A stretch of DNA of 23,823 nt from a virus: positions 1 to 23,823 of the IMG/VR virus record IMGVR_UViG_3300008627_000662; one strand, 5' to 3'. Each line of letters starts with the position of its first letter. Position 1 is the first letter of the stretch. The notes beneath the pieces were generated by a model, which saw only the letters and a program-made list of their open reading frames with translations, was not told the DNA's origin and searched no databases. The position numbers were made by a program, and so were the translations under genes. Shown in pieces: positions 687 to 9,192 of the stretch.

Positions 687-714
687 GCGACAACCTGCGC
701 CAATTTCGTATACT
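687..714 (+). promoter_or_regulatory. Rightward early promoter
   Basis: The -10 TATACT at 709-714 is a good match to the consensus. It is preceded by a weak -35 (GCGACA at 687-692) with a 16-base spacer. It lies just upstream of the AAGGAGG site and ATG of the excisionase-type gene, and it diverges from the leftward promoter at 627-655. An alternative -35, TTGAAA at 674-679, is too far away (29 bases). Confidence 0.45.
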
Positions 715-732
715 CAAGCGGAAGGAGGCACT

Positions 733-945
733 ATGCCCGAGATACTTACGACGACAGAATGCGCCGAGCGGCTACGGGTGAGTACCCGCACGATCCGGCA
801 GATGATCACAGACGGGAAGATCCCGCACTTCCGCATCGGAGGACAGGGGCGCGGCCAACTCCGCTTCGACTGGGACGAGGTGCTTACGAGCCTGCGCGAG
901 CAGGACCGGAGCAGGGTAGGCCGGGAGGCTCAGGCCGGTGAGTGA
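733..945 (+). CDS. Excisionase-family helix-turn-helix DNA-binding protein
   Basis: 70 residues. The start is set by AAGGAGG six bases before the ATG at 733; the same frame is open further upstream but lacks any such signal. Residues 5-60 match the excisionase/MerR-like winged-helix pattern: T-T-x-E-C-A-E-R-L-R-V-S-x-R-T-I-R-Q-M-I-x-D-G-K-I-P-H-F-R-I-G, then R-F-D-W-D-E-V. In this family the first helices contact DNA and the G-R-I/L-R-F strand forms the wing. It is the first gene of the rightward early operon and overlaps the replication gene by eight bases. No integrase is visible here, so it may be a transcription regulator rather than a true recombination directionality factor. Confidence 0.75.
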   Translation: MPEILTTTECAERLRVSTRTIRQMITDGKIPHFRIGGQGRGQLRFDWDEVLTSLREQDRSRVGREAQAGE

Positions 946-1756
946 CGGGTTCGGCATGATACCCAACGCGCTGATAGACGCGCTGGCGCTAGACTCTCGG
1001 CTCACCCTCTCGGATCACCGGGTGGTGCTCTACGTTGTGCGCCAGAGCATCGGCTACAACCGAGCAGACTCGGGCGACTTTGGATCCTTCGCCGCCATAG
1101 CGCGAGGAACGGGGCTCAGCCGCCGAACAGTCGTCTCCACTCTCGGGAAGCTCCAAAGGCTCGGGGTGCTATCTCGGACGCGACCACCGGCAGGAACTAG
1201 GCCGGCGGCTTACTCCGTCTGTCCTGCCAAGGAGTGGGCTAGGGGTGAGCCACAGATCACCGGTGAGCCACAGATCACTAGTGAGCCACAGATCACCCAT
1301 AGGGGTGAGCTACAGATCCCCCCTGGGGGTGAGCCACAGATCACCCCACAAAAGACAAGGATCAAAAAACAAGTAAAAGACAACAACAACAAGGCGTCGT
1401 CGTGGCTGGATGACATTCGATCGATCAAGGACGAGCCGAGTGCAGAGGGCCGGATCGACATCGCCGCCCTTCGCCAGCGTCTCGGGATGCGGATCAGTAT
1501 CGCCGATGTCGCCCGCCCGAAGTGGATCGGGATCTCCCAGCAAGACCCCGCCCGAGTCGAGGAACTCCTGACCTGGGCAGCGGGTACAGCCGATCCGGCC
1601 TCAGCCTTCACCGCATGCTTCGACGCGACCGGCAAAGCGAAAGCCAAGCGCAGAGCGAAGCCCGGCAAAGAGACACCCGAAGAGAAGTCCCGGCGTTATG
1701 CCGAGATGGAAGAGCGAGTAAAGAAGAAGTTAGCAGCGCGAGCTGCGCTAAGATAA
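938..1756 (+). CDS. Phage replication initiator, lambda O-like organisation
   Basis: 272 residues from GTG at 938, preceded by GGGAGG and overlapping the upstream gene by eight bases. Residues 1-100 form a winged-helix region: N-A-L-I-D-A-L, then S-D-H-R-V-V-L-Y-V-V-R-Q-S-I-G-Y-N, then I-A-R-G-T-G-L-S-R-R-T-V-V-S-T-L-G-K-L-Q-R-L-G-V-L. This layout is known from phage replication proteins that bind origin DNA. Residues about 103-136 are a repetitive linker (GEPQIT repeats) encoded by the 18-bp iterons. An Asn/Lys-rich linker follows, then a C-terminal domain from about residue 150 ending in a highly basic helix (K-K-K-L-A-A-R-A-A-L-R). The order of N-terminal DNA-binding domain, iterons and A-rich tract inside the gene, and C-terminal domain mirrors lambda O. 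Its role would be to bind the iterons and recruit the helicase loader. Family assignment rests on these patterns. Confidence 0.75.
   Translation: MSDGFGMIPNALIDALALDSRLTLSDHRVVLYVVRQSIGYNRADSGDFGSFAAIARGTGLSRRTVVSTLGKLQRLGVLSRTRPPAGTRPAAYSVCPAKEWARGEPQITGEPQITSEPQITHRGELQIPPGGEPQITPQKTRIKKQVKDNNNKASSWLDDIRSIKDEPSAEGRIDIAALRQRLGMRISIADVARPKWIGISQQDPARVEELLTWAAGTADPASAFTACFDATGKAKAKRRAKPGKETPEEKSRRYAEMEERVKKKLAARAALR
1244..1345 (+). repeat. Five 18-bp iterons inside the initiator gene (putative origin)
   Basis: Five copies of GGTGAGCCACAGATCACC or close variants start at 1244, 1262, 1280, 1304 and 1328. Copies 1 and 5 are identical. Copies 2 and 3 differ by one base each, and copy 4 by two (GCTACAGATCCCC end). 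Copies 1-3 abut; copies 4 and 5 are each preceded by a 6-base spacer, so all unit lengths keep the reading frame. Each unit is itself a hyphenated palindrome, GGTGA-N8-TCACC, as lambda ori iterons are. All copies point the same way. Together with the A-rich tract just downstream they look like the replication origin. Confidence 0.7.
1346..1392 (+). other. A-rich tract beside the iterons (putative DNA unwinding element)
   Basis: Immediately after the fifth iteron the coding strand becomes strongly adenine-rich (AAAAGACAAGG, AAAAAACAAG, then a run of AAC triplets), in sharp contrast to the GC-rich surroundings. It encodes a Lys/Gln/Asn linker in the initiator. In lambda an equivalent A-rich stretch next to the iterons is where the origin opens, so the same role is inferred here. 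Confidence 0.55.
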
Positions 1757-1773: not shown

Positions 1774-2391
1774 ATGGACCAGATCGCAGAGACAATAGAG
1801 GCCCAGCTAACATCAGCAAACCAGAGGACGCCCGACCCCGATGTCGTCGAGACGTGGCTGATCGACCTACAAAACAGACTCGGCGCAATCTCCGCCGACC
1901 GACTCGAGCGAGCCTTCACCGCTGCCCGGGACGAGTGCGCAGAGCGGAGAGCACGAGGCGCGTTCGGACAGCTCAGCCTCGACGACGTGATCCGGCAGTA
2001 CCGGAAGACCGAAGCCCGAGCGGTCGACGTTCCCACCGATCCGCACTGCCCGCACGCCTGCGACAAGGGCCACGCCATGATGACGGACAAGGAAGGCTAC
2101 GACGTGCAGGTGCCGTGCTCCTGCCGAGCCGGCGAACACCTTCGTAACCACCTCAAGATCTACGAGCGGAGGCGCAACGTCGAGGAGCTCCTGCGCTTCG
2201 GGTGGAAGGTCAAGAGCCGGTCAAAGCGTCGACTCTCGGAGGACGAAGTACAGTGGCTGATGGCTCGCTCGTTTGAGACATCGATCCAGCACGCAATGTG
2301 GGAGCACCGGAAGGACCGGAAGATGCCGGCGACCGATGAGAACATGGATCGAGCAGCTAAGATCCTTTCCCGATCTATCGGTCGCGGGTAG
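1774..2391 (+). CDS. Zinc-cluster protein after the initiator; possible helicase loader
   Basis: 205 residues. ATG at 1774 is preceded by AGGAGG four bases upstream and starts 17 bases after the initiator stop. Residues 1-80 are helical and highly charged. A compact Cys/His cluster follows: H91, C92, H94, C96, H100, then C115 and C117 (C-x3-C ... C-x-C), suitable for one zinc ion. The C-terminal 90 residues are basic and helical. No Walker motifs are visible, so it is not an AAA+ DnaC-type loader by sequence. Its place directly after an O-like initiator is where lambda-type phages keep the protein that delivers the host replicative helicase. That position is the only argument for the role, so it is tentative. 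Confidence 0.5.
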   Translation: MDQIAETIEAQLTSANQRTPDPDVVETWLIDLQNRLGAISADRLERAFTAARDECAERRARGAFGQLSLDDVIRQYRKTEARAVDVPTDPHCPHACDKGHAMMTDKEGYDVQVPCSCRAGEHLRNHLKIYERRRNVEELLRFGWKVKSRSKRRLSEDEVQWLMARSFETSIQHAMWEHRKDRKMPATDENMDRAAKILSRSIGRG

Positions 2392-2400
2392 GCTGGCACC

Positions 2401-3576
2401 ATGGCAGGAGCACTTAGACACGACCTCACGATCCAGACTCGCCCGATCTCCGAGCTGACACCCTGGGCCAAGAACCCACGGGACAACGACGCCGCAGCAG
2501 AGGAACTCGCCTACACGATCAGCGAGGTCGGATGGACTAACCCGATCCTCCTCGACAAGCACGGCACGATCATCGCCGGGCACACTCGGCTCAAGGCCGC
2601 GCTCAAGCTGGGACTCACCGAGGTTCCTACGATCACTCTCGATGTCGACGGACCACAAGCAGAACTGATCGCCATCGCGGACAACCGACTCTCTGAGTTC
2701 GCAGAGTGGGACAAGGATGCACTCGCTGAGATCCTGGAGAGCCTACAGGCCGAAGGCATCGACACGAAGATCGCAGGCTACGGGGACGACGACCTCTCCG
2801 ACCTTCTAGCCTCGCTCGACTCCGAGCCCATCGGTCCCGACGACATCGAGCCCGAGGCACCGCCCGAAGATCCCGACAGCAAGCGCGGCGAGGTCTACGA
2901 ACTCGGACCGCATCGGTTGATCTGCGGTGATTCGACTGATGAGAGTGTCTGGGCACTCGTCATGGGAAAGACAAAGGCTGACTTGGTGTTAACAGATCCG
3001 CCTTATGGGCTGGGCGACACAGAGAGCGAAAAGAACAACTACAGGACCCACGACGACACAAAAGAAAACCTCATCAATATAGTCGCCAATGTAATTCCCA
3101 TCGCTCGCGCTCGCGCTCGCGTTGTCGCACTAACTCCGGGCAACGGGAACACTGCGCTCTATCCGCCGCCAACGTGGACAATGGCATGGTTCACCCCTGC
3201 TGGCGTCGGGCGTGGACCTTGGGGGTTCTGTTGCTGGCAACCAATTCTCTGCTACGGGAAAGATCCAAAGCTCGCCAAGGGGCTAGGCTGCCACCCTGAC
3301 GCCATCGTGCACACAGAGAGCGCCGAAGACTTCGGGCACCCCTGCTCAAAGCCGATCAACTTCTGGGTGTGGCTTGTTGAGAGAACCAGCGAAAAAGGGG
3401 ACGCTATCGTCGACCCATTCGGGGGAAGCGGGACGACGCTGATCGCCTGTGCTCGCACCGGACGAACCGCTACGCTGATCGAGCTTGACCCCGGCTACTG
3501 CGACGTTATCCGTAAGCGGTGGACAGCCTGGGCCAAGGAAGCAGGGCAAGACCCAGGACCGGGGGCGCTTGACTGA
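2401..3576 (+). CDS. ParB-like domain fused to DNA methyltransferase
   Basis: 391 residues. Residues 10-110 are a ParB/Srx-type N-terminal domain: I-S-E-L-T-P-W-x-x-N-P-R, then G-W-T-N-P-I-L-L-D, then I-I-A-G-H-T-R-L with the conserved G-H-x-R at 60-63. Residues 165-385 are an N4-cytosine/N6-adenine methyltransferase with catalytic D-P-P-Y at 199-202 and the AdoMet-binding D-P-F-G-G-S-G-T-T at 338-346. Catalytic motif first and AdoMet motif last gives the beta-class order. The intervening part (W-F-T-P-A-G-V-G-R-G-P-W-G-F) probably holds target recognition. Such fusions are common in phages, where they modify phage DNA, often against host restriction. No cognate nuclease is nearby, so this is an orphan enzyme. 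The ribosome binding site is weak. The stretch from about 2960 to 3420 is richer in A/T than its flanks, suggesting a transferred module. Confidence 0.9.
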   Translation: MAGALRHDLTIQTRPISELTPWAKNPRDNDAAAEELAYTISEVGWTNPILLDKHGTIIAGHTRLKAALKLGLTEVPTITLDVDGPQAELIAIADNRLSEFAEWDKDALAEILESLQAEGIDTKIAGYGDDDLSDLLASLDSEPIGPDDIEPEAPPEDPDSKRGEVYELGPHRLICGDSTDESVWALVMGKTKADLVLTDPPYGLGDTESEKNNYRTHDDTKENLINIVANVIPIARARARVVALTPGNGNTALYPPPTWTMAWFTPAGVGRGPWGFCCWQPILCYGKDPKLAKGLGCHPDAIVHTESAEDFGHPCSKPINFWVWLVERTSEKGDAIVDPFGGSGTTLIACARTGRTATLIELDPGYCDVIRKRWTAWAKEAGQDPGPGALD

Positions 3577-4455: not shown

Positions 4456-4497
4456 TGTCTTAGTCTCCTTCGGGCTCAATTGCCCTTGACTGTCTTT

Positions 4498-4588: not shown

Positions 4589-4594
4589 CTCCCC

Positions 4595-5953
4595 GTGTCG
4601 CTAGCTTCCGCCCTTTCCGCCGTATCTGCTAATCCGCTCGCCCGCTATCAGCCCCGCCCAGGGCAGGAGCGGTTCCACCGAAGCCAAGCGCAGACGAGAT
4701 GCATGAGGGGGCCGAACCAGATCGTCGGCAAGTCCTACGCAGGCTGTGCGGAGGCGTTGTGGTTCCTGACGCACACTCACCCTTACCGGGAGATCCCCGA
4801 CCGTCCCGTAGCCGGGCGACTCGTTCCCTACTCCGACGACAGCAGCAAAGAGATCGAGGGCAAGCTGTACGAGCTGCTTCCCAAGTCGCTGCTCCACCCT
4901 GACTGCCGCTACCATCCAGATCGCGGGTTCACCACCGGGCGGCGGCGGATGCTCAGACTCAAGACGGGCGACTCGATGGGGATCGTCTCGCAGTCGGCGG
5001 GCACCCTGGCGGCGGCAGGCTCTACGCTCGACTTCGTATGGCTGGACGAGCCACCCGAGCGGAAGATCTTCGCGGAGGCTCAAAGCCGGGTGCTAGTGCG
5101 CAAGGGCTGCTTGTGGCTCACCCTCACCCCGGTCGGGCGTCCGGTGGGCTGGCTCAAGGATGCGTGCGAGGATGGGCTGATCGAGGACATCCACGTTGAG
5201 CCTACGCCAGAGAACACCGGGCTCAGCGAGGAGGAGCTTGACGCGATCAAGCAGATGATCCTCCCAACCGAGCGCCCGCAGCGATTCGGGGGCGAGTGGG
5301 AAGGGGCGACGCCTGATCGCTTCTACGGGGCATGGCACGACGGGATGGTCAGCAAGGAGCTACCCGACTGCGAGCTACAGATTGGGATCGGCATCGACCA
5401 CGGCGAAGGCCACGGGCGACAGGGCGCGCTGCTCTGCGGCTTCGACACTCGCGACAAGAGCAACCCGCGTGTCTGGTTCCTCGACGAGTACACGAGCCAA
5501 GGGCACAGCGGGATCGAAGAGGACGCCAACGGGATCCTCGACATGCTCTCACGCTGGGACCTAGGACCCGAAGCGGTCGACGTGGCGCGCGGGGATGTCA
5601 ACAGCGCAGGCAAGGCCGAGTCGGGCTACCGGGTGAACCAGTTGCTTGAGCAGAAGATCGCGGTGCTCTCCGGCCTACCGCCCACCGCTCCACCGTTCCG
5701 CATCAAGGCGGCGCGCAAGGGTCCGGGCTCGGTGGCCTACACTGCTCGCCTACTTCACTCCGCGATGGTCAAGGGCTCGCTCACCGTCCACCCGAACTGC
5801 GAGGCCTTGATCGCTGGGCTGCGTCACTGGCGGGGGCCGGGCGGCACGTCCCAGAATAAAGAGCTGTCTCACATTCTCGACGCTGCCCGGTACATTGGGC
5901 GGGAGTTCCTAGACACGAGGCACCGCAACACCGACCGGATCAAGGTGCGATAG
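4595..5953 (+). CDS. terL: Terminase large subunit (packaging ATPase and nuclease)
   Basis: 452 residues. The motor translocates DNA through the portal into the prohead and cuts it to genome length. Walker A is G-P-N-Q-I-V-G-K-S at 39-47, and Walker B with catalytic glutamate is V-W-L-D-E at 148-152. An ATPase coupling stretch (L-W-L-T-L-T-P) follows. The C-terminal RNase H-like nuclease begins at G-I-D-H-G-E-G-H-G, with D268 as a likely metal ligand, and includes H-I-L-D-A-A-R-Y near the end. GTG at 4595 is the first start after the in-frame TAG at 4577 and has no ribosome binding site. The length is normal for the family. The gene is separated from the small terminase by a leftward gene, which is unusual. 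Confidence 0.93.
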   Translation: MSLASALSAVSANPLARYQPRPGQERFHRSQAQTRCMRGPNQIVGKSYAGCAEALWFLTHTHPYREIPDRPVAGRLVPYSDDSSKEIEGKLYELLPKSLLHPDCRYHPDRGFTTGRRRMLRLKTGDSMGIVSQSAGTLAAAGSTLDFVWLDEPPERKIFAEAQSRVLVRKGCLWLTLTPVGRPVGWLKDACEDGLIEDIHVEPTPENTGLSEEELDAIKQMILPTERPQRFGGEWEGATPDRFYGAWHDGMVSKELPDCELQIGIGIDHGEGHGRQGALLCGFDTRDKSNPRVWFLDEYTSQGHSGIEEDANGILDMLSRWDLGPEAVDVARGDVNSAGKAESGYRVNQLLEQKIAVLSGLPPTAPPFRIKAARKGPGSVAYTARLLHSAMVKGSLTVHPNCEALIAGLRHWRGPGGTSQNKELSHILDAARYIGREFLDTRHRNTDRIKVR

Positions 5954-8274: not shown

Positions 8275-9192
8275 ATGGCTAACGAAATTACCTATACGGG
8301 GCAGGGTGCGAACCTCCGCGCCGCCGAAGTCTTCAACTCTCTCATCTGGGATCTGGTCTACGACCGAACCGATCTCCGGCAGCTCTGCGTCAAGCTCGGC
8401 GACCTCGGTGGCTCCGGCTCCGCGAAGCTTGAGACTCCGCAGGTTGACTGGAATCTCCCGATGGCGGCTGCGAACGCCGATGAGGTCACTGCCGCAGGCA
8501 ACACCGCGATCACCGACTCGGCCTTGAGCCTCACGGTCGCTCAGCAGATCATCGCCTTTGAGATCTCCGACCTGATGTCGGTGACGGGTGGAGCGGGTAA
8601 CCTCGACATCGCACGCCTCGCTGAAGCAGTCAGCAACGCCTACAGCCTCCGCTTCACGGATCAGGTCTGCGGCGTGATTGACGGCTTCACCGCGACAGTG
8701 GGAACCACCACCGTCGACATGACGGTTGACGACTTCTACGCGGCCATGTTCGCCCTTGAGCAGGCAGTTGTCAGCGGACCTTACGCCGCTGTGCTCTACC
8801 CCACCCAGTTCACCGACTTGCAGGAATCCCTGCGCTCGGAAGGCGGAGCGCTTTCCTTCTCCGCCCCGACCGCTGAGATGCTTGCGATGAAGGGTCCCGG
8901 CTTCTCTGGCTCCTTCCTCGGCGTCGACATCTGGAAGTCCGATTCGGTCGTAACTGCCAACGCAGGTGCCGACAGCGCGGGGGCCATGTTCGGCCTCGGT
9001 GGTGTGGCATACGCGGAGGCCAGCGCCTCGGGTGCCCTGCCCGGTAGCATCGCAGCTCCCGCGATGAGCCCGGTATACGCCGAGTTTGAGCGTGTAGCTG
9101 ACCCCGGTTTGTGTCGAGTCATCGGTCACGCCTTTAATGCGGTCGCCATCGGTGAGGACGCGCGAGGCGTGTCCATCATCACCGACCGATAA
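8275..9192 (+). CDS. Major capsid protein (HK97-type fold likely)
   Basis: 305 residues starting M-A-N-E-I-T-Y-T, with a strong ribosome binding site and its own promoter. It would form the icosahedral shell. Composition is typical of capsid proteins: Ala/Gly/Ser/Thr-rich with few charges. Blocks I read as HK97-like are a helical N-arm, an alternating segment A-A-N-A-D-E-V-T-A-A-G-N-T-A-I-T-D-S-A-L-S-L-T-V-A-Q-Q (E-loop-like), a spine helix L-D-I-A-R-L-A-E-A-V-S-N-A-Y-S-L-R-F-T-D-Q-V, and a P-domain strand P-Y-A-A-V-L-Y-P-T-Q-F. The C-terminal strands end in V-S-I-I-T-D-R. Position after the scaffold is diagnostic. The fold is inferred from pattern only. I see no separate protease or delta-domain. 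Confidence 0.88.
   Translation: MANEITYTGQGANLRAAEVFNSLIWDLVYDRTDLRQLCVKLGDLGGSGSAKLETPQVDWNLPMAAANADEVTAAGNTAITDSALSLTVAQQIIAFEISDLMSVTGGAGNLDIARLAEAVSNAYSLRFTDQVCGVIDGFTATVGTTTVDMTVDDFYAAMFALEQAVVSGPYAAVLYPTQFTDLQESLRSEGGALSFSAPTAEMLAMKGPGFSGSFLGVDIWKSDSVVTANAGADSAGAMFGLGGVAYAEASASGALPGSIAAPAMSPVYAEFERVADPGLCRVIGHAFNAVAIGEDARGVSIITDR

Follow-up and report, generated by a model that had tools for sequence, protein, structure and literature searches.

A putative lambda-type replication origin within an O-like initiator gene of a phage known from metagenomes

Analysis of a viral DNA of 23,823 nucleotides with a GC content of 62% (IMG/VR record IMGVR_UViG_3300008627_000662; this whole stretch is called the window) revealed five direct repeats followed by an A-rich tract in the middle of a gene for an O-like replication protein. 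This arrangement very probably represents a replication origin of the lambda type, in which the repeats are putative iterons bound by the initiator and the tract is an unwinding element. The design is a known one; the region is a good further example of it in a phage known only from metagenomes and not a new system. In related phages the repeats change together with the winged-helix (wHTH) domain encoded in front of them. The coordinates of all features are summarized in Table 1.

Table 1. Features of the putative origin region (positions in the window)
Feature	Position	Strand	Sequence or evidence
Promoter-like site GCGACA-N16-TATACT, directed toward the initiator gene and through the putative origin	687..714	+	1 found, 0.1 expected
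Small HTH_17 gene, conserved left flank of the cassette	733..945	+	PF12728, E 3.3e-10
Gene for the O-like initiator protein (272 aa; start codon GTG)	938..1756	+	phrog_678 match, PF04492 match below the cut-off; AlphaFold model
Winged-helix DNA-binding domain, exchanged along with the repeats	938..1237	+	39% aa identity to L002; wHTH fold matches
Iteron 1 (putative)	1244..1261	+	GGTGAGCCACAGATCACC
Iteron 2 (putative)	1262..1279	+	GGTGAGCCACAGATCACT
Iteron 3 (putative)	1280..1297	+	AGTGAGCCACAGATCACC
Iteron 4 (putative), dyad weakened	1304..1321	+	GGTGAGCTACAGATCCCC
Iteron 5 (putative)	1328..1345	+	GGTGAGCCACAGATCACC, sequence as iteron 1
A-rich strand-asymmetric tract, putative DNA unwinding element, cassette seam	1346..1392	+	30 A, 2 T in 47 bases
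C-terminal domain, presumed helicase/loader interaction module	1393..1753	+	82% identity to L002; unrelated counterpart in L005
Next gene, 205 aa, Cys/His motif CPHAC...CSC	1774..2391	+	85-88% identical in three relatives

Repeat array, A-rich tract and initiator protein

The five 18-bp units follow each other directly after the wHTH domain at spacings of 18, 18, 24 and 24 bp. All of them are in frame 0 of the initiator ORF and encode, in this order, the peptides GEPQIT, GEPQIT, SEPQIT, GELQIP and GEPQIT; the first-pass annotation had rightly stated that the lengths of units and spacers are multiples of three, which applies to the entire array. The repeats were also placed correctly and are far above chance, since no 12-mer occurred more than twice in any of 1000 versions of the gene with shuffled codons, compared with four copies of one 12-mer in the real gene. 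The description of each unit as a GGTGA-N8-TCACC dyad was confirmed in part: the exact dyad with its 5-bp arms is present in units 1 and 5, an outer base is altered in units 2 (TCACT) and 3 (AGTGA), and unit 4 ends with TCCCC. The inner core GTGA-N8-TCAC occurs in four of the five units, so that the array possesses the internal dyad symmetry of a lambda-type origin within a gene. Unit-like sequences were found on neither strand elsewhere in the window, and Tandem Repeats Finder detected no second array of such kind in it. A search of IMG/VR with the repeat pattern of the window matched only a near-identical contig (L020).

The A-rich tract that had been noticed on the coding strand right after the repeats is real, and as an AT-rich, strand-asymmetric neighbor of the repeats it corresponds to the tract next to the iterons of such an origin. 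The most A-rich 40-mer of the + strand of the window is located here (1350-1389), just after the array. The same 40-mer ranks second in AT content (72.5%) behind a stretch at 4495, which is apparently intergenic. The GC skew along the window does not clearly change direction at the array.

Profile searches with the encoded protein are in line with its earlier description as a putative initiator. It matched phrog_678, a profile shared with lambda O, over residues 2-187 (E 1.5e-15), and PF04492 (Phage_rep_O) with 27.4 bits (E 5e-6), which is 1.3 bits below the gathering cut-off of 28.7. The AlphaFold model, whose mean pLDDT of 59.9 is modest and in which most wHTH blocks reach about 70-84, assigns residues 10-95 to a winged helix, predicts disorder for residues 97-150 and shows a helical C-terminal part. 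In a structure comparison the model aligned with many wHTH proteins (best Z 10.0), and the N-terminal domain of DnaD was among the fold matches (Z 8.6). The predicted disorder falls on the linker that the repeats encode. The product of the ORF is an O-like initiator composed of a wHTH domain, a repeat-encoded disordered linker and a helical C-terminal domain, and the additional use of the array as a flexible linker between two domains suits its location in the gene.

Comparison with lambda and other phage origins

For comparison, the O gene and ori of lambda were read from J02459. Within the lambda O gene, four annotated 18-bp iterons start at codon 117 and are followed by an A-rich coding strand; the window shows the same order, as the first-pass annotation had proposed. 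In both cases the origin, which is putative in the window, is part of the initiator gene and closely follows the wHTH domain (J02459; PMC3349717, PMC7466680, PMC5043065), the repeats are 18 bp long with internal dyads, and the coding strand 3' of the repeats is rich in A and poor in T (in lambda, A accounts for 26 and T for 8 of 46 bases). The domain similarity of the proteins is apparent through phrog_678, which lambda O matched with E 1.7e-35; the score of lambda O with PF04492 was 123.4 bits. The window differs from lambda in having five repeats instead of four, in spacings of a single frame in place of 20/24/23 in three frames, and in a C-terminal half without convincing BLAST similarity to lambda O. 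The repeat sequences, which the first-pass annotation had described as dissimilar, are unrelated. The 11-mer CACAAAAGACA occurs immediately 3' of the last repeat both in the window (1347-1357) and in lambda (L022 521-531) in differing frames, and may be a coincidence of A-rich DNA.

The layout had been attributed to independent evolution. This view is unsupported because the wHTH domain of the window initiator is probably homologous to that of lambda O, as judged from the shared profile phrog_678, from the relative L002, whose wHTH domain aligns directly to residues 25-117 of lambda O (E 1.4e-4), and from the same position of the repeats, which start at the end of the wHTH domain in all three cases (codon 117 in lambda, 96 in L002 and 103 in the window). 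A profile of three wHTH sequences matched lambda O with E 2.7e-4 over 41 columns and a probability of only 42%, so that the link is moderate and not strong. The simpler reading is probably that the layout is shared with lambda by descent and that the sequence of the repeats is rapidly replaced.

In the established mechanism of lambda, the amino-terminal half of O binds the repeats (PMC4488673), binding occurs as dimers, and negatively supercoiled DNA is opened in the adjacent A+T-rich region (PMC5043065); the P protein has a high affinity for DnaB (PMC3640518) and helps to bring the helicase. The parts for repeat binding and for opening of an A+T-rich region are present in the window in the same order. 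We infer that the repeats act as iterons for the protein of their own gene, with the N-terminal winged helices of initiator copies bound to the dyad repeats, probably as dimers. The bound initiator would wrap or bend the DNA and help to melt the adjoining A-rich tract in a similar way as lambda O, and the C-terminal half would recruit the replicative helicase, either directly or via the product of the neighboring gene at 1774-2391. After recruitment of the helicase the phage genome could be copied by enzymes of the host.

Similar arrangements have been described in other phages. The O genes of Stx phages contain 4 or 6 iterons, and an in-frame change of the repeat number lengthens the protein (PMC7466680); the lambda repeat sequence is common to these phages, whereas the relatives of the window replace the repeats entirely. 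In SPP1, gp38 binds direct repeats within its own gene, the origin includes an AT-rich unwinding element and the helicase loader gp39 participates in initiation (PMC6316719). By description, SPP1 oriL resembles the window in its direct repeats in the initiator gene and its AT-rich element, with binding being putative in the window, but SPP1 additionally has oriR, another origin at a distance of about 13 kb (PMC6316719). For hybrids of lambdoid O genes (lambda/phi80 and lambda/82; Furth and Yates 1978, cited in PMC6022878 and PMC4488673), iteron binding is reported to reside in the amino-terminal half of O, and other lambdoid O genes are reported not to complement, so that domain and origin should travel together.

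Related phages and exchange of the DNA-binding half

The initiator gene of the relative L001 is identical to that of the window. L002 shares with the window the A-rich tract, the HTH gene in front of the initiator gene, the C-terminal half of the initiator (82% amino acid identity, aligned over residues 6-134 of a C-terminal query of 135) and the gene that follows (86%), whereas the identity of the wHTH domain is 39% and the repeats are dyad units of the GTACAG-N4-CTGTAC type, unlike those of the window. At the DNA level, identity between window and L002 is about 0.45-0.57 over most of the wHTH domain and the repeats (960-1350) and mostly 0.72-0.95 in the flanks, with a level of about 0.85 on both sides of this region; in a sliding comparison the drop begins with the gene itself, and the higher level is reached again no more than about 15-20 bp past the last repeat. 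The first-pass annotation had suggested a comparison of homologues for a variable repeat number between conserved flanking domains. Conservation was confirmed for the flanks and the C-terminal half of L002, but the wHTH domain is replaced along with the repeats.

The relative L005 carries the wHTH domain and the repeats of L002 (spacings 18, 15, 24 and 24 bp) joined to an unrelated C-terminal half of low similarity, and its identity with L002 stops within the A-rich tract, which is kept in part. The repeats of L002 and L005 also show dyad symmetry, though their sequence differs from that of the window. L007 encodes an initiator with an N-terminal domain of a different class (phrog_16167, E 1.9e-25), and this gene contains five 11-bp repeats of the CAAGCATGAAT type. 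Since the units of L007 are not clear dyads and the repeats are not accompanied by an AT-rich tract, the full lambda layout is not present in every member. In place of the A-rich tract, a run of GAGTCG units (ESESESKSESES) follows the repeats of L007 at 4589-4636.

Comparison of the window, L002, L005 and L007 demonstrated that the N-terminal domain and the repeats change while the flanks stay, hence the wHTH domain and the repeats travel together. These phages appear to exchange the DNA-reading half of the initiator and the matching DNA sites as one unit. In contrast to the lambdoid hybrids, the exchange takes place among uncultured phages, and it extends to another class of initiator (L007) and to an independent swap of the C-terminal half (L005). 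Sequence exchange between relatives is enough to recognize the DNA-binding half of the initiator and the repeats as one functional unit, in phages for which the searches found no cultured representative. A search of 50,697 phage records revealed relatives of neither the initiator nor the neighboring gene; in GTDB contigs the neighboring gene had no match and the N-terminal alignment had one distant match, in Laceyella sacchari. The three matched pairs of protein and repeats (window, L002/L005 and L007) are suitable for studying how winged helices read their sites, and the approach offers a simple route to replication origins in metagenomic phages.

A more far-reaching idea, which we regard as possible but rather doubtful, is that the initiator gene serves as a socket for two exchangeable parts, a specificity cassette made up of the DNA-binding domain with its own repeats and a C-terminal domain for recruitment. 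Each part would be replaced independently of the other via the A-rich tract, and this would include exchange between initiator classes that are not related. If so, the specificity of the origin would be changed in one recombination step, for example to escape cross-interference when related phages share a cell.

Alternative roles of the repeats and surrounding genes

The repeats could also be a duplicated GEPQIT linker without a role as DNA. Every unit of the window and of L002 is in one frame and the linker is predicted to be disordered, as expected for such a protein repeat, but we consider this very unlikely in view of the relatives. The 11-bp period of L007 shifts the frame unit by unit (2, 1, 0, 2, 1), the resulting peptide MHDSSMNQARAKHEPSMDPS is non-repetitive, and none of 2000 synonymous-codon shuffles reached the observed periodicity of the DNA; because these units span all three frames, they are not explicable as protein repeats. 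The linker peptides of the relatives have no common sequence, yet dyads recur in L002 and L005. Between these two genomes the synonymous rate per site is 0.31 in the wHTH domain and 0.07 in the repeats, about fourfold lower (changes in the repeats 2/26, binomial P 0.015), which, as a small sample from a single genome pair, is supporting evidence only.

A role as an internal operator, at which the wHTH protein would control its own transcription with the true origin elsewhere, has an equally small chance in our opinion. MarR-like repressors also have the wHTH fold, protein bound within the gene could block RNA polymerase, and such control would be compatible with a function as origin. However, the repeats adjoin the A-rich tract more than 500 bp away from the sole promoter-like site, the database relatives are replication initiators and not repressors, and Tandem Repeats Finder detected the array as the only one of its kind in the window. 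Least probable of all is that the dyads form hairpins in the mRNA for attenuation or control of translation. For the window array, predicted folding of the + strand RNA is better than that of shuffled sequences (z -3.4), but the L002 array shows no such difference (z -0.44) and L007 a weak one (z -2.4), Rfam gave no match, and sites for binding of dimers are expected to be short and symmetric anyway. Hairpins as the main function were rejected because they are not kept in L002.

Among the flanking genes of the putative origin, the HTH_17 gene is conserved with 86-91% amino acid identity in L015 and L016, and TATACTCAAGCGGAAGGAGG of the promoter-like site is kept in L002 and L007. The gene at 1774-2391 is complete in three relatives and conserved in each of them, regardless of the type of initiator, which makes its product a candidate for a loader or another partner of the initiator. 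The invariant Cys/His motif of this product is possibly metal-binding. The protein matched no family in Pfam or PHROG at E values up to 1, so that a relationship to lambda P is not seen, and neither profiles nor structure comparison matched a known helicase loader. The structure matches were weak (Z up to 6.7), and with a mean pLDDT of 57 the model is too uncertain to call a loader by fold; the absence of G39P among the matches is uninformative. The following ORF of the window (2401-3576) fuses a ParB N-terminal domain (PF02195) with an N6/N4 DNA methylase (PF01555); in L005 its place after the neighboring gene is taken by a gene for a different protein of 148 aa.

The near-identical contig L020 provides additional information on the wider phage. 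Its gene order suggests that the two ends of the window are joined through a stretch (7374-10038 of L020) that separates the tail genes from the initiator region. On its reverse strand this stretch contains ERF, SSB and Gp157 genes and a gene for a protein that resembles RuvC-type resolvases by its DPGPT motif, without a Pfam match. A putative major capsid protein is encoded at 8275-9192 of the window (weak match to Linocin_M18, E 0.001, below the cut-off), and L020, although a phage contig, encodes at 4899-5435 a protein that matches the NikA-like mobilization domain PF21983 (E 2.7e-7).
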